IMG/VR virus record: IMGVR_UViG_3300042890_004414
Location: 1 to 45,027 of that record
Reading direction: 5' to 3' (one strand)
DNA length: 45,027 bases
From: a virus
Of the stretch, positions 967 to 19,929 are shown piece after piece (position 1 is the first letter of the stretch; each line of letters starts with the position of its first letter). The notes beneath the pieces are model-generated. The model was not told the origin of the DNA and did no database searches. It worked only from the letters and a program-made list of their open reading frames with translations. Both the position numbers and the translations under genes were made by a program.

Positions 967-1347
967 ATGGCAAATAATTTTAATTTTATAGATTTCTATA
1001 TCTGTTATCCAGGACATCCAATGTTTAAATTGGCAGAACTTATCGAAGATGACGTAATCAGAGTTATCATACAAAAGTATGAAATGATTATCTTTACTAA
1101 TAAAGGTGAAGTTTTAGGTGAGCCTAACTTTGGTGCTAATCTAACAGAACTACTACACGAAACTAGATTATCTGCGGAATCAATTGAAGGAGAAATAATG
1201 GCACAAATTGCTGATTATATACCAGAAGTAGATTCTGTTCCTTATGAACTATTCGTAGAATTTTTTGAAGATCCTGAAAGATACCAAGAATATATGGTTA
1301 TAAATTTTACGGTTTCTGATTATCAAGTTTATGCGACAGTAAGTTAA
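967..1347 (+). CDS. 25: Baseplate wedge protein, gp25/gpW family
   Basis: A 126-residue protein, close to the 132 residues of T4 gp25. Residues 41-65 carry the family signature, IIFTNKGEVLGEP followed by NFGANLTELLHE, matching the conserved FTxxGExxxxPxFGxxLxxLLxE pattern of gpW/gp25 domains. This protein sits in the inner baseplate wedge, binds the gp6/gp53-type core bundle and helps start sheath assembly. It follows the gp44 terminator and has its own octamer 4 nt before the ATG, so it is probably a separate late unit. Its stop overlaps by 3 nt the stop of the convergent SET gene. The remaining sequence is acidic, as usual for gp25. Confidence 0.88.
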   Translation: MANNFNFIDFYICYPGHPMFKLAELIEDDVIRVIIQKYEMIIFTNKGEVLGEPNFGANLTELLHETRLSAESIEGEIMAQIADYIPEVDSVPYELFVEFFEDPERYQEYMVINFTVSDYQVYATVS

Positions 1348-1790
1348 AGTCTATAAGAATTATTGTTCCAATAGTTTTCACCATATTCAACAAATATTTC
1401 CTCACCAGATTCTATATCTCTTGTTGCAACAAGAACAACATCATCACCATCCATTGAAATGATACAATTATTTTTAAAGCCAGTATTAGAACCCTCTGCA
1501 TCATTTGCATATTTTGCAAAACAATCAGTTTGTTTACAATCTAATATATCACCATTTGGTAGGTTCATGAAATAATCATCATCTCCTGATTCAGTTCTTG
1601 ATTTAATTTCTTCATCCGAAAGTATTTCTCCTTTAAAAATAGAAATAACCTCGTCTTTTTCAATATCAATTGCGGTGAATAAACCTCTTCCAGAATTAGG
1701 TATCTGTGAAGTTTCTACATATAAATAGTCTGATTCATCAGAATCAATTCTATCAAAATCAAAATTTTCAAAAGTTTTTAAGTATCTCAT
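1344..1790 (-). CDS. SET-domain protein (putative lysine methyltransferase) with capsid-targeting-like N-terminus
   Basis: This 148-residue protein is a minimal SET domain behind a short N-terminal tag. Residues 1-10 (MRYLKTFENF) belong to the shared MKxLKxFExF peptide. Residues about 30-38 (IPNSGRGLFTA) form the SAM-contacting GRG motif. IFKGE follows, then FAKYANDAEG with NNC as the substrate/knot region, ATRDIESGEEI, and the terminal VEYGENYW holding the conserved Tyr-Gly. The pattern fits small viral and bacterial SET proteins that methylate protein lysines with S-adenosylmethionine. It is the last gene of a leftward operon with three other tagged proteins; the spacer to the gene before it is 9 nt. 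The tag suggests (inference) packaging in the virion and delivery to the host. The target is unknown. Confidence 0.82.
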   Translation of the reverse strand: MRYLKTFENFDFDRIDSDESDYLYVETSQIPNSGRGLFTAIDIEKDEVISIFKGEILSDEEIKSRTESGDDDYFMNLPNGDILDCKQTDCFAKYANDAEGSNTGFKNNCIISMDGDDVVLVATRDIESGEEIFVEYGENYWNNNSYRL

Positions 1791-2417: not shown

Positions 2418-4190
2418 TTAGTCTAACATTGCTAGTTTTTTTCTAATAATTGTAATTATAGATTGAATACCATTATTTATATTACCATAATATTGTCTTC
2501 TATCTATAAGTGCTGGATATAAATGACGAACATCATTATAATAACTACCTGGACGCATTCTATCAAATAAACCATTTAAGTTAGTTATAGACATTCTATC
2601 AGATCTTAATAAACTTTTTATAGAATAAATCTCTTGTATTAGAAATTCAACATCCTCTAAAGTATCTACTTTGATTGATGAAATATATTTATTTATCTCT
2701 ATAGATAAGTTATCTATATTAGATAGTATTCTAAGATCTTTATCCGTCCAATCTTCATTAGTCTCTGCTTTAATTCTATCTTTAAGTTGTTTAAGTAATC
2801 TGTTTGTACTATCTACTTTTTTAATTGAATTATCCAATAAGCTTTTATATTTATCGTTAATAATAGTAATAATATCTATAAAGTCTCTATCCAGTTTTAA
2901 ATCTTCAACTGCTGTTCCTACTAATCCATCTTCTGCAGATTGATTATCTATTTTTTCTGCAGTTTTTATTTTTTTAATCATCTTAAAGATATAACCTGCT
3001 ATAGTTGACAGAGTATCCATTTCATTAGTACTTGCAGAATTATTTAAGAAGTACACACAAGATCTAGCACCAAGAGCTCTAATAGCCATACTAGTAAATT
3101 TACTAACATCTTGTAATTCTCCAGTTAGTTTAAAATTAGTGGCAATTTTATCAAAGTATCTTTTAATATTTGCTTTCTTTATATCATCATTAGATATAAG
3201 AGCAGTTGCACCTGCTCTTAATTCTGTTCTACCAGATTTTAATTCTGTTTTCTTTACAACTCCCAACTTCTCTAATTTAGAGAAGTCTAATATAATTGCA
3301 AAGTTTGCATCTTTCAATGTAGAAGCAACTTGAACAGGTCTAATACGGAAGTTAGACATATCAAATAATGTATTATATCCATAAGGATCTTGACCACCTG
3401 CATTAGCTTTAGCTTTTAATAAATTTATATTATTAACTCTGGATTGACTCATTTGCCAATATCTACCTGCTATTTGATTCCAACCAGTAGTTTCTCTAGG
3501 ATAGTTATTATAATAACTCGCAGTATTTTGTAATGCAAAAACCTTTGTTCCTGACCAAGTTTGAGCTTTCATAACATAACTAACAACTTGTGGATATAAC
3601 TCATTTCTCCAACCACCATTATTAACTAAGTCTAACGCAATAATATCACCTGTTTCAAGTTCATTTATACGCGACTTTGGAATTCTTTTAACTACATCAT
3701 AATCTACAAGATTTGGTGAGAATGTTGTTGCTGCGGTATTAGTTGATGCTCTATAAATACCATCTACTGCAGTTGTAGCAATATACTTACCTTCAGCATT
3801 AAACCAAAATTTAAGTAAAGATAAATCTGATCTTTTAGGCTTGATACCAGTACCTTTACAAGTACCACAATCAACAACTCTAAATCCTCTACCCCAAGGT
3901 CTTCTTACTTTACCGTTATCACATCTTTCACCATGAATAAACTCACCTACTGCACCACAAGGTTGGTCATCAGAAACAACATTGTTGAATCTCAATGCTT
4001 TATTAAAAGGCAAATAAGTAAATAAGTCATCTGTAAGTTTAGACTCAGGTATGTCAAATTTTTGACATACTGTTTTTAGATTTGATAAAAAGTTATTTTT
4101 ATCATCTTTTCCATTAATATGTTTAAGTGTTGCGTTAAGTGTTGTAGCATCAAATGCTTCAAATAATTTTATATATTTTAGATTTTTCAT
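2418..4190 (-). CDS. Large tagged protein of unknown function with a DnaJ-like half zinc motif
   Basis: A 590-residue protein with no family I recognise. It opens with MKNLKYIKLFEAF, a longer form of the shared tag with a possible LFE|A cleavage site. Residues about 78-120 hold four cysteines, the last pair as CGTCKGTG, which matches one CxxCxGxG repeat of DnaJ-type zinc domains. Residues about 400-590 are lysine-rich and helical. The middle is rich in Asn and aromatic residues. The start overlaps the end of the 567-aa gene by 4 nt (ATGA-type coupling). I infer a virion-internal or injected protein from the tag only. Confidence 0.72.
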   Translation of the reverse strand: MKNLKYIKLFEAFDATTLNATLKHINGKDDKNNFLSNLKTVCQKFDIPESKLTDDLFTYLPFNKALRFNNVVSDDQPCGAVGEFIHGERCDNGKVRRPWGRGFRVVDCGTCKGTGIKPKRSDLSLLKFWFNAEGKYIATTAVDGIYRASTNTAATTFSPNLVDYDVVKRIPKSRINELETGDIIALDLVNNGGWRNELYPQVVSYVMKAQTWSGTKVFALQNTASYYNNYPRETTGWNQIAGRYWQMSQSRVNNINLLKAKANAGGQDPYGYNTLFDMSNFRIRPVQVASTLKDANFAIILDFSKLEKLGVVKKTELKSGRTELRAGATALISNDDIKKANIKRYFDKIATNFKLTGELQDVSKFTSMAIRALGARSCVYFLNNSASTNEMDTLSTIAGYIFKMIKKIKTAEKIDNQSAEDGLVGTAVEDLKLDRDFIDIITIINDKYKSLLDNSIKKVDSTNRLLKQLKDRIKAETNEDWTDKDLRILSNIDNLSIEINKYISSIKVDTLEDVEFLIQEIYSIKSLLRSDRMSITNLNGLFDRMRPGSYYNDVRHLYPALIDRRQYYGNINNGIQSIITIIRKKLAMLD

Positions 4191-5890
4191 ATTACTGGTC
4201 CAACTATTTCTATTTTTAATCCTTTACTTCTAAGAGATGATATTATTGATTTACTTTCTTTAGTTACTAAATCTCCAGAAATTATCAATTTCTTTAGACT
4301 ATCTGATACAATTGATTTCAAATCTTCTGCAGAATCTAAAGTATATAATACTTGTAACTCTTCTAATGACTTGAATGTAGAGAAGTCAAAAGATCCAACA
4401 TTATCACAACTAATTATTTGTAGTTTTTTAATATTTGGATTTGACTTATTAATATCTTGTAAAACATCATTAGAAAATTTACATTTATCAAATGCTATAT
4501 TTGTTGTTTTGATATTATCAAAGTCTTTTAAAGTATGTATTTCAATGAATTTAAACTTAATCCAATCTAATGTGATATTTAAAGTTAGTAAACTATCTGG
4601 TATTTCAGTAGTTTCAATAATCAATTCTTTAATTCTTGCATTTGGATCAACTCTAACATTTTTCCAATTACCAATTTGACTTAAATATAATGTCTTAATG
4701 TTTTTACCAATCATCTTACCTTGAGTAAGTGATAATTTATCTTGATATGGTGAGTCTAATGCATCTTCAAAATCAATATCTGGAGTATATAAATATCTAT
4801 CACCTCTTTGACCAGTACTTACATTTTTACTATATTTAGTAACTATTTCTTCAAATTTATCTTGCATTCTATCTGGATAAGCTCTATCAAAATATAATTT
4901 TGTAGGAGCATTTTCTTCAAATGATTCTAGATTTCTAATAATCATTCTAGATAATGGTAAATGTTCTGATATTTTTTCACCTTCCCAGAAAATAGGAGTT
5001 TCAAAAATTAAAAATGCCGGTATACTATTTGGATCAAATACATTTGCCAAAACCTGACGACTATATCCACCACTATATAAGTGTTGACATGAAGAATAGA
5101 ATTTAGAAATAGACATATTTAAAATGTCTTTTGGATTATGACTAATTTTTAAGAAAATATCTTTATTAAAAATTTCAAAGTCTAATTTATATTGTGTATT
5201 CTCATTTGTTGCTGCAAAGTTTATAAAACTACCTAGGTTTCTGTTTTCGGAAAATAAATTTGATGATGCTATTTTATCCATAGTAGACCATCCTTCAACA
5301 TTTGCGTCAATACATTTATCAACTAAATCATTGTAATCTACAATGAAAGAGTTTATATTGATTAAGTTATTACTAAAAGCTAAATCACCGGGTTTCTTTT
5401 CAACTCTAATCATATTACCTTGTTCATCTCTGATTGGTCTATTTGATTCATCTTTAGAGATTACAGAAGTTGCCATTGTATCAGGAATTGATAGTTTTCT
5501 AAAAACTGAACTGAATATAGCAAGTATTTGATCTAATTTAGGTTTTCTAATATCAAATCCCTCAAAAATTCTTTCATATGTAGCTTTATCTTCTCTAAAT
5601 AGATCAGTATTGATAGATTGATTTAAAACATTACCAAATTGTTCTGGTAAACTTGAAAACAAAGTAAAAAGCTGTGGCATATCTGTTTGACAAAATACAC
5701 CTAATACATCATTCTTATCTTCTTCAGATAACTTCCAACTTCCTTGTATAATCTTATCAGTAGGTGTTACCTCTTCATAATCTAAGTATTTCTCTCCCCA
5801 TTTTGATATTACTGCTTTTGCTTGTCTTGGTAGAATAACATCACGTAATTTAGCTTCTAAAAAAAGATTTCTGTTTTTAATCCATTTCAT
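4187..5890 (-). CDS. Large tagged protein of unknown function, C-terminal leucine-rich-repeat-like
   Basis: A 567-residue protein, first in the leftward four-gene operon. Its N-terminus MKWIKNRNLFLEA combines the shared tag with a FLE|A site like the T4 prohead-protease site. Residues about 400-560 are a series of short strands with regularly spaced Leu/Ile (for example IKELIIETTEIPDSLLTL, LKKLIISGDL), resembling leucine-rich repeats as in many protein-binding effectors. The middle contains SSCQHLYSGGYSRQVLANVF; I do not recognise a catalytic family. An AATATATA octamer lies 28 nt upstream in the divergent spacer. The tag and a possible protein-binding fold fit a delivered effector, but this is inference. 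Confidence 0.72.
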   Translation of the reverse strand: MKWIKNRNLFLEAKLRDVILPRQAKAVISKWGEKYLDYEEVTPTDKIIQGSWKLSEEDKNDVLGVFCQTDMPQLFTLFSSLPEQFGNVLNQSINTDLFREDKATYERIFEGFDIRKPKLDQILAIFSSVFRKLSIPDTMATSVISKDESNRPIRDEQGNMIRVEKKPGDLAFSNNLININSFIVDYNDLVDKCIDANVEGWSTMDKIASSNLFSENRNLGSFINFAATNENTQYKLDFEIFNKDIFLKISHNPKDILNMSISKFYSSCQHLYSGGYSRQVLANVFDPNSIPAFLIFETPIFWEGEKISEHLPLSRMIIRNLESFEENAPTKLYFDRAYPDRMQDKFEEIVTKYSKNVSTGQRGDRYLYTPDIDFEDALDSPYQDKLSLTQGKMIGKNIKTLYLSQIGNWKNVRVDPNARIKELIIETTEIPDSLLTLNITLDWIKFKFIEIHTLKDFDNIKTTNIAFDKCKFSNDVLQDINKSNPNIKKLQIISCDNVGSFDFSTFKSLEELQVLYTLDSAEDLKSIVSDSLKKLIISGDLVTKESKSIISSLRSKGLKIEIVGPVI

Positions 5891-5918: not shown

Positions 5919-5926
5919 TATATATT
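5919..5926 (-). promoter_or_regulatory. AATATATA octamer upstream of the four-gene tagged operon
   Basis: On the minus strand AATATATA lies 28 nt before the ATG of the 567-aa gene, the only such octamer for the operon running to 1344. It is a candidate late promoter. Confidence 0.4.
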
Positions 5927-6020
5927 AAAAAAAATTATCTTAAAAACATATTTTTTCATATATTTGTACAATCAATAAACAAACTAATAAAAAAACTATA
6001 TAGTTAAAAAAGATTTTAAT

Positions 6021-16087: not shown

Positions 16088-16139
16088 ATTATTTATTATA
16101 GTAAAAAATATATAAAATGTTAAAAGGATTAAGTTTTTT

Positions 16140-16147
16140 AATATATA
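16140..16147 (+). promoter_or_regulatory. AATATATA octamer 5 nt before the preferred tape-measure start
   Basis: AATATATA, then CTTTT, then the ATG at 16153. A second AATATATA at 16107-16114 lies 2 nt before the alternative ATG at 16117. Confidence 0.45.
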
Positions 16148-16152
16148 CTTTT

Positions 16153-19100
16153 ATGGATAAGCAGTTATTAGAAGCATTAAATAATTTATCAGATTCACTC
16201 GAAATGATCTCAAAAGCACTTGAGAATAAAGAGGGTAGTAATACTACAACTACCAATGCTCTTCAAAGTGGTGATTTCTCAAAACAACTAACTGAGATTA
16301 CAACTAGTTTGAAATCTATTAAGTCAGATACTAAAAAGATTTTAGAGAAACAAAACACTATTTTAGAGATGCAGAAACAAAAAGATTCTGACAAAAAAAA
16401 TGCTATTGATGAAACTGGAGAAGATCCTAAAAAACAAAGTGATCTGAAAAAGGGTGTAACTACAATACTTTTAATCGCTGTTGCAGTATTAGCAATTGGT
16501 TTAGCATTTAAAATAATAGGTAAGGTTGATTTTCTATCAGTTGTCTCACTTGGTTTAGCAATTGTTTTAATAGCTCACGCATTTCAAAAGATTGCGGAAG
16601 CTGAGATTACAGAAGACCAGGCAATTGATGCGGGTGCAACTATGGTTATAATGTCTATGGCTATTATGGTATCATCTTGGATACTATCTTTTATAAAACC
16701 AATATCATTTACTCAAGCAGTAACTGCTATTTTAATCGCAGGTATGTTTACAGTAATTGCGTTTGGAATTAAAAAATTGATAAACGCACTAGGTGAAAAT
16801 ATAGGAACGTTGATGAAATCTATTTTATTTTTACCTCTAATATTACCTGCAATAGCTTTAGGAATAACACTATCATCTTGGGTACTAGCATTTATAAATC
16901 CTATATCATTTGCACAAGCAATAACCGCTATTTTAATCGCAGGTATGTTTACAGTAATTGCATTTGGAATTAAAAAATTGATAAACGCACTAGGAGCTGA
17001 TATAACAACATTAGGTAAAGCAATTCTATTCTTACCTCTAATATTACCTGCAATAGCATTGGGTATTGCAGCATCATCTTGGGTATTACAAATGATAGTT
17101 CCAATATCATTTACACAAGCACTGACAGGTATTTTAATTGCAGCAATGTTTACAGTAATTTCATTTGGAATTAAAAAACTAATAGGTGCATTTAAAGGAT
17201 TAGACCCAGCACAGGCTGCAGTTGCCGCAATATTGATGCCTTTATTACTAATTGCTATGTCAATGGCAATAGCCGCATCATCATTCTTTCTAGCACAAAT
17301 AACTCCTATAGGATTTGATCAATTCTTTACAGCAATTGGTATATCAATAGTATTTGTTGTATTGGCGTTTGCTTTAAAACTAATGGCACCTGCAATTAAA
17401 AAGATAAAAATAGGAGATGTTGTTGTATTACCTTTATTATTTACTGCATTATCACTTGCGATTATGTTATCTTCTAAAATATTGGTAGAAACTACTCCAA
17501 TTGACTATTCTCTATTATTTAATATTGTAGTATTCTCTATTGTTTTTGCGATATCCGCAATTGCAATGGGATTTGCAGCTTTTGTACTTGCAAAAATAGG
17601 AATTAAGAAGATTATAGAAGGCGGATTATGTATGATTATACTAGCTGGAGTTGTAGCAGTATCATCACTTTTAATTTCAGAAGGTAAATATGATAATTAT
17701 CCTGGTTGGGAATGGGCACTTGGTACAGGTGCTTCTATATTAGCATTTGGTTTAATTGCAACAGTATTTGGTTTAATAATTGAAACTGGTATTGGTGGGG
17801 CAGCACTAGCATTAGGAGCACTTGCTATAGTAGGGATTGCAGCAGTAATAGTTGCAACTTCTTATATTTTATCAAAAGGTAAATATGAGAACTATCCTGG
17901 TATAGGATGGGCAATGGGTGTTGGTATAAGTTTAACTGCATTTGGTTTAGCTATGGCTGGTTTAGGTAGTGTAATTCTTTTATCGTTTGGATTAGGAATG
18001 ACAGCATTAGCTGCAGGTGGTGAAGCAGTTTTATTGATTGCACAAACAATAGTTGATTCCGCGGCAATATTATCAAAAGGTAATTTTACAGGTGGTCCTA
18101 CATTAGAATGGGCAGGTGGAATAGCTCTTGCATTAGCAGCATTCTCTCCAATCTATGCTATGTTGGCAGCAAATAAAATAATGAGTTTATTTGGCGGTGG
18201 AATTGGACCTGATGAATTCTCAAATGCAATAAGAACAGTATCTCAAGGAATTGCTGATGCGGCAAACTATTTTTCTGATCCTAAAGATAAAAATGGTAAG
18301 CCAATGAAAGTTAGTTTTAAAGGTGGTCCTACATTAGAATGGGCAGGTGGAATAGCTCTTGCATTAGCGGCATTCTCTCCAGTCTATGCTATGTTAGCAG
18401 CCAATAAAATAATGAGTTTGTTTGGTGGTGGAGTTGGACCAGAAGACTTTGCAAATGCAATAAGAACCGTATCTCAAGGAATTGTTGATGCGGCAAACTA
18501 TTTTTCTGATCCTAAAGATAAAGATGGTAAGTCAATAAAAGTTGATTTTAAAGGAGGACCACCTAAAGAGTGGGCAGAGGGAGTTGGTGGTGCGATAGCA
18601 GCATTTGCACCAGTATATGCCGCACTTAGTAGTGGTGGCATGTTTAGTGTAAAGGTTACACCAGAAGATATGAAAACAGGTATTCTAACTATTGTAGATG
18701 GTATAATTGCAGCAGCAGATGCTTTTGGACTAAATAAGTCTAAGTTTGATTTATCAAATACACCTTCTGCAGACTGGGGTAAAAATGTTGGAGGAGCTTT
18801 ACAAGCATTTGCACCAGTATTTACTTATATGAATGAAAATAGTGGTTGGTTTAAATCAGGCCCAGAAGCGGCAAATGAAATGGTATATGGAATTAACACA
18901 GTTGCTAATGCAATAGTTTCAGTTGCTAATAAATTTGGTAAAGTTAAACTAGCTGTTTGGAAATCTTATCCACCAAGTACGTGGATAACTAATATATCAA
19001 AATCAATTAAAGATTATGTTAAACTTGCAACTAGTTTAGTCAATGTTGATTTATCAAGTATTTTAAACATAGATGTTATTGTACTTTTAATGGTGGCAAC

Positions 19101-19929
19101 TGCAAGAATAATTCATAATAATAAAAGGTATTTTACCACTATGAATAATGCTTTTGTTACAAGTTTAACGAGAAATTTAACTGGATACAAAAGTCTAAGT
19201 AGTCGTCTAGCAAATACAAGTTTAATAGGTTTGGCGAAAACTAATTTAGTAGCTTTATCATTAGTAAGAGTAGCAAAAACTATATGGTCAGGAAGACAAT
19301 TTTTTTCAAAAAGTATTGATCCTAATTATATGAAGAATTTATCTAAAAACGTAATGGATTATGCAAAACTAGCAAATTATCTAACTAGTACTAACAAAAA
19401 TTCTGGTTTCTTTAGTGGAGTTAAATCATTACTTGGTTTAGATCCTATTTCACAAGCAGCAAGAGGTATGATTACTATTGCAGGTGCTTATGATAAGTTA
19501 GCAACATCATTGAGGAAATTTGGTGGTGCACTTTCATCAATAGATGGTAAGAAGGTCAACCTAATAAGAAATCTAACTGGTAATTTAGCAGTATTAGCTT
19601 CAATGAATCAGGATAATTTAGAAAATATGATGAAAACTCTTGAAGAAAGAGCAAGTGTATTTAGTAAGTTGGTTGAATATGATGGTACGAAAACAAAACG
19701 TCCAGCAGTTGGAGACAAAAAGGCCGCACCTACAACACCAGGAAAACCAGGAGGTAAACCAAAAATGGATACTCATGCACAATTAGACATGATTATTCAA
19801 TTATTAAGTAATATAAATCAAACTACGGTATCTTTAGATCAACATATTACTGGTGCATCTGAAGGTAATGTACAGACTAAATCTGTTGCAGGTGGTGGAA
19901 ATAGTGGTAGCAGTTGGTTCAATTGGTAA
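16153..19929 (+). CDS. Very long hydrophobic repeat protein, probable tail tape-measure protein
   Basis: About 1,258 residues from the preferred ATG, which has an octamer 5 nt upstream; an in-frame ATG at 16117 would add 12. Residues 1-90 are a coiled coil (LNNLSDSLEMISKALENKEG). Residues about 100-600 contain many Ala/Ile/Leu-rich membrane-like helices, three of them in 67-residue tandem repeats. Residues about 645-860 hold 77-residue repeats starting GGPTLEWAGGIALALAAFSP. The C-terminus is hydrophilic (HAQLDMIIQLLSNINQ), ending SSWFNW. Length, helicity, hydrophobic segments and tail-gene neighbours fit a tape measure, which sets tail length and may enter the host membrane on ejection. No specific gp29 motif was seen, so a different large virion membrane protein is possible. 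Confidence 0.65.
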   Translation: MDKQLLEALNNLSDSLEMISKALENKEGSNTTTTNALQSGDFSKQLTEITTSLKSIKSDTKKILEKQNTILEMQKQKDSDKKNAIDETGEDPKKQSDLKKGVTTILLIAVAVLAIGLAFKIIGKVDFLSVVSLGLAIVLIAHAFQKIAEAEITEDQAIDAGATMVIMSMAIMVSSWILSFIKPISFTQAVTAILIAGMFTVIAFGIKKLINALGENIGTLMKSILFLPLILPAIALGITLSSWVLAFINPISFAQAITAILIAGMFTVIAFGIKKLINALGADITTLGKAILFLPLILPAIALGIAASSWVLQMIVPISFTQALTGILIAAMFTVISFGIKKLIGAFKGLDPAQAAVAAILMPLLLIAMSMAIAASSFFLAQITPIGFDQFFTAIGISIVFVVLAFALKLMAPAIKKIKIGDVVVLPLLFTALSLAIMLSSKILVETTPIDYSLLFNIVVFSIVFAISAIAMGFAAFVLAKIGIKKIIEGGLCMIILAGVVAVSSLLISEGKYDNYPGWEWALGTGASILAFGLIATVFGLIIETGIGGAALALGALAIVGIAAVIVATSYILSKGKYENYPGIGWAMGVGISLTAFGLAMAGLGSVILLSFGLGMTALAAGGEAVLLIAQTIVDSAAILSKGNFTGGPTLEWAGGIALALAAFSPIYAMLAANKIMSLFGGGIGPDEFSNAIRTVSQGIADAANYFSDPKDKNGKPMKVSFKGGPTLEWAGGIALALAAFSPVYAMLAANKIMSLFGGGVGPEDFANAIRTVSQGIVDAANYFSDPKDKDGKSIKVDFKGGPPKEWAEGVGGAIAAFAPVYAALSSGGMFSVKVTPEDMKTGILTIVDGIIAAADAFGLNKSKFDLSNTPSADWGKNVGGALQAFAPVFTYMNENSGWFKSGPEAANEMVYGINTVANAIVSVANKFGKVKLAVWKSYPPSTWITNISKSIKDYVKLATSLVNVDLSSILNIDVIVLLMVATARIIHNNKRYFTTMNNAFVTSLTRNLTGYKSLSSRLANTSLIGLAKTNLVALSLVRVAKTIWSGRQFFSKSIDPNYMKNLSKNVMDYAKLANYLTSTNKNSGFFSGVKSLLGLDPISQAARGMITIAGAYDKLATSLRKFGGALSSIDGKKVNLIRNLTGNLAVLASMNQDNLENMMKTLEERASVFSKLVEYDGTKTKRPAVGDKKAAPTTPGKPGGKPKMDTHAQLDMIIQLLSNINQTTVSLDQHITGASEGNVQTKSVAGGGNSGSSWFNW
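16670..17200 (+). repeat. 201-bp in-frame tandem repeat, about 2.6 units
   Basis: Matching points recur at 16699, 16900 and 17101, exactly 201 bp (67 codons) apart. The first two units are nearly identical in DNA over about 100 bp (around GCTATTTTAATCGCAGGTAT), indicating recent duplication; the third has drifted. Confidence 0.85.
18091..18552 (+). repeat. 231-bp in-frame tandem repeat, two close copies
   Basis: The copies begin at 18091 and 18322 (GGTGGTCCTACATTAGAATG) and differ at few positions. A third, diverged start at 18553 continues the pattern. The unit is 77 codons and includes the motif ANYFSDPKDK. Confidence 0.87.

Follow-up and report, generated by a model that had tools for sequence, protein, structure and literature searches.

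The 45,027-nt window analyzed here (IMGVR_UViG_3300042890_004414, positions 1 to 45,027), which was read as DNA of a huge phage with a bacterial host, carries a minus-strand gene for a SET-domain protein (1344-1790) whose first ten residues form a putative capsid-targeting tag. We consider the chances to be evenly balanced that this predicted protein-lysine methyltransferase is phage-head cargo that is delivered into the next host and acts there; its packaging, ejection, enzyme activity and substrate are what we infer. The gene has an ATG start, encodes 148 aa (coordinates include the stop codon; the ends of the protein read MRYLKTFENFDFDR...EYGENYWNNNSYRL) and is the last of four tagged genes in an operon. 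Its unusual feature among phages is the tag and not the SET domain.

The ORF lies exactly at 1344-1790, as an earlier note on this DNA had proposed, and the four sequence motifs listed there are all present: GRGLF (aa 34-38), NNC (aa 107-109), GEEI (aa 129-132) and EYGENYW (aa 135-141). Its claim of a complete SET domain is likewise borne out. Pfam SET (PF00856) is the single domain of the 148-aa protein (E-value: 8.5e-14; 52.3 bits, with the curated cut-off at 22.4), and the match covers the whole profile (positions 1-105 of 105). The domain proper spans aa 34-137 (1380-1691, minus strand) and includes G34 and G36, N96, D97, Y136 and G137. Matches found by phmmer and with a nine-sequence profile include EZH2, MLL2-4, SETD7, NSD1 and Legionella LegAS4. 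Structure prediction, a check that had been named beforehand, also returned a SET fold: an AlphaFold2 model made with 23 diverse viral SET sequences has a pLDDT of 74 and a pTM of 0.70, with low confidence at aa 1-6. This wider alignment was needed, as a model made with the nine close orthologues only was unusable (pLDDT 33). In Foldseek searches, the model matched the SET structures of MLL1 and MLL3 (probability 1.00, TM about 0.60-0.63) and also EZH2, LegAS4 was among its best PDB matches, and its matches in BFVD were giant-virus SET proteins and several SET proteins of uncultured Caudovirales. The match extends over the two C-terminal motifs that would form the pseudoknot (126-128 columns). 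As modelled, 1344-1790 encodes an intact-looking SET fold with most of the active-site residues.

The tag, MRYLKTFENF (aa 1-10; 1761-1790, minus strand), is nearly invariant in the orthologues. When the ORFs of the window and of the 642-kb uncultured phage LR756502.1 were pooled, N-termini of the form M[KR][HYNWF][LI][KR] were found in 103/968, with 0.75 expected from shuffled N-termini; a different tag expression gave 72/923 (5.5 expected) and 11/45 (0.4 expected). Common forms are MKHLKxYKIFES, MKYLKxFExF and MKHLKKYNES. Many otherwise unrelated proteins thus carry the tag, which resembles the N-termini of the T4 internal proteins, MKTYQEFIAE or MKTFKEF. The first ten residues of IPIII are enough to direct it into the T4 head, and cleavage by the protease follows [LI]xE (PMC9026906). 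A hydrophobic-x-Glu-[SNAG] site follows the tag in 53 of the 103 tagged proteins (7.5 expected) and [LI]xE followed by S, N, A or G in 26 (3.1 expected). The gp21-type site [LI]xE is not evident in the SET tag, which reads T-F-E-N; because KTFE-N does not fit this pattern, cutting of the tag is not predicted. Pfam analysis of 91 tagged proteins gave few matches, to eight families (SET, lysozyme, NUDIX, HNH and others), while 89 size-matched untagged proteins gave 36 families, including DNA polymerase, helicase, NusG and glutamine synthetase. Unlike the untagged set, the tagged proteins with Pfam matches included no replication proteins. In LR756502.1, most of the approximately 100 tagged genes are grouped at 0-100 kb, 400-440 kb and 540-600 kb, many of them in tandem and distant from the structural block.

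All four operon genes are on the minus strand. The first encodes a tagged 567-aa protein (4187-5890), the second a tagged 590-aa protein with CxxC pairs (2418-4190) and the third a tagged 205-aa protein (1800-2417) that is a conserved neighbour of SET. The 205-aa gene is present in 55 IMG/VR loci, LR756502 and LR745206; its product has no Pfam match, and its likeness to isochorismatase-type cysteine hydrolases was noted by eye only. It also occurs in 735-kb phages, there without a tag match. A putative late promoter element of the operon, TTTAATATATA (5919-5929), lies on the same strand, 29 bp upstream of the start codon of the 567-aa gene.

Orthologues of the SET gene were found in 17 IMG/VR contigs and in LR756502.1 (64-100% identity), the latter being the one named record that has an orthologue (64% identity). 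In most loci the gene is located between the 205-aa gene and gp25, while in the L047 group it is on the other side of the 205-aa gene. Pairwise dN/dS is about 0.04-0.26 across the orthologues, and the gene is under purifying selection. So is the tag peptide: over the first 12 codons, the window and locus L007 have silent differences only (pN 0, pS 0.69), such that the peptide is kept while its codons change. The gene is missing from L074 and L075 (where the neighbour gene is 97% identical) and from the 635-kb phage LR745206, and is accessory. Two scans of genome contigs, using patterns made from very conserved stretches only, found no bacterial relative. Weak matches to the phages SynMITS9220M01 and MT837890 were inspected and rejected as chance.

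Two motifs are abundant upstream of LR756502 genes, TATATTTG and (TTT)AATATATA. The first, which fits the Bacteroidetes -7 element TAnnTTTG (PMC7366714), precedes 158/829 untagged genes and 2/94 tagged genes. The second usually lies 10-40 bp upstream of the start codon, and these TTTAATATATA-like sites precede 73/94 tagged compared to 208/829 untagged genes (p=1.7e-23) or, counted per operon, 51/66 compared to 118/415 (p=7.7e-14). The motif also precedes 35/37 tagged and 51/165 untagged genes in 13 other loci, although any p value from these loci is too good because they are related. This late-like motif, which consists of A and T only and was found by looking, precedes the genes for the portal, major capsid protein, prohead protease and baseplate gp25, and is absent before those for two ribonucleotide reductases, DNA polymerase and the clamp loader. 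Exceptions are DnaB, which has the motif, and the LR756502 sheath gene, which has only a variant. In LR756502, L044 and L047, where SET heads its own unit, the motif is directly upstream of it. The window contains five exact copies of TTTAATATATA (0.75 expected), of which four precede the SET operon, the sheath gene, a gene encoding 1940 aa and a tagged gene. The fifth, at 16137, is 20 bp downstream of the start listed for a 1270-aa ORF (16117-19929); a later ATG (MDKQLLEALNNL) may be the true start of this ORF, as in LR756502. The upstream regions show no enrichment of the T4 late promoter TATAAATA. From its distribution, we infer that the TTTAATATATA-type motif is a late promoter. TTTAATATATA-like sites mark both tagged and structural genes, and one precedes the SET operon, so its SET product is probably made late and directed to the capsid, in the manner of T4 internal proteins. 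The link between tagged genes and TTTAATATATA-like sites is new here. Upstream regions of the window and LR756502.1 fall into two promoter-like classes, with the Bacteroidetes-type TATATTTG before untagged genes and TTTAATATATA before tagged and structural ones. With respect to the host, a Bacteroidota bacterium is suggested by the Bacteroidetes-type promoter motif together with the type IX secretion sorting domain of one untagged protein.

LR756502 has head genes of the T4 type, including Portal_T4 (1.2e-58) and a Gp23 major capsid protein (4.5e-28); the S77 match of its prohead protease (1.8e-5) is below the curated cut-off. The occurrence of the tag on unrelated proteins, its likeness to T4 N-termini and the promoter motif that it shares with structural genes support the view that it behaves like a capsid-targeting sequence. 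As a separate observation, a 699-aa ORF (L018:25272-27371; LR756502.1 225272-227371) begins with an S77/gp21-like prohead protease and continues with more than 10 repeats like DKNISYSEYIAENL, which form repeated [LI]AE cleavage-type sites; it resembles a fusion between the protease and a scaffold that digests itself. DNA polymerase B matches in LR756502.1 are split over several ORFs (120483-121919 and 254-255 kb), one with in-frame stops; this could reflect an intron, a split gene or an assembly error.

Although the earlier note had called SET methyltransferases rare in phages, a search of IMG/VR at the DNA level for GEE(L/I)xx(D/E/N/K)YGxxYW identified phage SET genes in at least 119 stretches, and 120/120 ORFs among the matches listed fit the SET profile. 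The gene is also carried by cultured Stenotrophomonas phages of the genus Menderavirus (Mendera gp270), where it corresponds to ORF62 of phage Ps15 (PMC9025141). Most phage SET proteins, including that of the 735-kb phages, have no tag, and phage SET proteins can therefore act without packaging. In other phage lineages, SET genes are close to structural or terminase genes. We found no packaged phage SET protein in the literature. A second group of phage SET proteins (231-422 aa; L146:8725-9420, L152:8649-9419 and L177:6098-7366) has tag-like N-termini (MKHRIKSLDEYLNE in L146 and MKHKIKPLEDYLQ in L152) and a conserved C-terminus, NPAVSGVAIKG, with the SAM-site Asn replaced (SHS/KHS/RHS). Because this Asn is lost, the L146 and L152 N-termini were set aside as support for tagging.

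If the SET protein is delivered cargo, it would be made late, alongside the portal, capsid and prohead-protease proteins. The tag would bind it to the prohead core, so that it would be enclosed in the head and would enter the next cell with the phage DNA. There, with S-adenosylmethionine supplied by the host, it would methylate lysines in host proteins (or, with lower likelihood, phage proteins) as infection begins. Several observations count against this reading: approximately 100 packaged species are far more than T4 has, the SET tag contains no [LI]xE, the His of the Asn-His pair is Asp in every orthologue, most phage SET proteins are untagged, and the late-like motif is composed of A and T only, was found by looking and has the exceptions given above.

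A late, core-bound SET protein might alternatively modify the phage's own head or core proteins during assembly or maturation, its delivery being incidental. A late-type promoter and a tag would suit assembly as well as delivery, and the proximity of SET genes to structural or terminase genes in other lineages fits this role. Such an explanation is unlikely, however, as a gene that is accessory (absent from L074, L075 and LR745206) would be unusual for a needed assembly step. Somewhat more doubtful again is that the protein is an ordinary intracellular lysine methyltransferase that is not packaged, with a tag that serves otherwise, for example in localization to the assembly site. That most phage SET proteins lack a tag, and that no cleavage site is evident in this one, would be expected of such an enzyme, but its tag is conserved, resembles T4 capsid-targeting sequences and is linked to late-type promoters.

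The active site bears on a further alternative. By profile alignment, N96 would be the SAM-site Asn and Y136 the catalytic Tyr. G34, G36, N96 and Y136 are invariant in the orthologues and at least 90% conserved in the wide alignment, and G137 is invariant or nearly so. The NNC sequence at aa 107-109, previously listed as part of the SET pattern, is not the SET Asn motif (NHxC): its C varies (C/S/T), and the real position is N96-D97 (YAND), which aligns with the Asn-His of EZH2 by phmmer and with the nine-sequence profile. Where NH(S)C has its His, every orthologue has Asp (D97). An N-D pair (FAND) is also found in the related phage SET protein of L149, which indicates that the His-to-Asp change recurs. 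It is improbable that the protein has weak or no catalytic activity and serves as a binding module (for lysine or SAM, or as a decoy): D97 in all orthologues would suit this role, but N96, Y136 and the GxG loop have been retained, dN/dS is low and the L149 protein is also FAND.

Taking delivered cargo as the preferred reading, a broader proposal is that huge T4-like phages, probably of Bacteroidota, load approximately 100 late, tagged gene products per genome into the head, including an injected SET protein that methylates proteins of the bacterium as infection begins and would be the first prokaryotic counterpart of packaged vSET. We regard this full proposal as possible, with the balance tipped against it. 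What is new is a combination of known parts, phage SET and T4-like capsid targeting, and virion delivery is plausible. If true, phages would inject a protein-methylating enzyme into bacteria as they do ADP-ribosyltransferases, and a first testable role would be available for the numerous SET genes in environmental phages that still lack an explanation. The tag and promoter motif together provide a simple sequence rule for listing candidate packaged proteins of uncultured huge phages.

T4 Alt, to which the earlier note had drawn a parallel, is an ADP-ribosyltransferase delivered by the virion to modify host proteins as infection begins. The idea of a packaged host-modifying enzyme is common to both; the chemistry and fold differ, and the Alt N-terminus (MELITELFDE) is not a tag of this kind, which makes the parallel a loose one. 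In T4 IPI-III, as in the phages described here, a short N-terminal peptide is common to unrelated proteins (MKTYQEF or MKTFKEF, compared to MRYLKTFENF), and both T4 and LR756502 have gp20/gp21/gp23-type head genes. Unlike that of IPI-III, this tag has a longer KxLK start and is found on approximately 100 proteins, and the SET copy has no [LI]xE site. Although the best NCBIfam match of the SET protein is Legionella LegAS4/AnkI (NF043024), its score of 46.6 bits is far below the cut-off of 550, so it is not a member of that family; LegAS4/AnkI is a multi-domain secreted effector, unlike the 148-aa phage protein. The SET proteins of Menderavirus, of BFVD Caudovirales and of marine IMG/VR phages are, like this one, small phage-encoded SET domains, but nearly all are untagged and many keep the NHS motif, in contrast to the tagged window protein with its ND pair. 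The vSET of chlorovirus PBCV-1 is packaged in the virion, is tied to host shut-off and acts on histone H3K27 (PMC7019647, PMC3089700). Set beside it by description, the window protein is also a small, stand-alone viral SET domain of similar size; it differs in its N-terminal tag, in that its packaging is predicted and in its bacterial host, that of vSET being a eukaryote. As the host is bacterial, the chromatin target of vSET cannot apply unchanged. By analogy, the tagged SET protein would have closer counterparts than T4 Alt: IPI-III of T4 with regard to targeting, and the packaged vSET of chlorovirus with regard to the enzyme.
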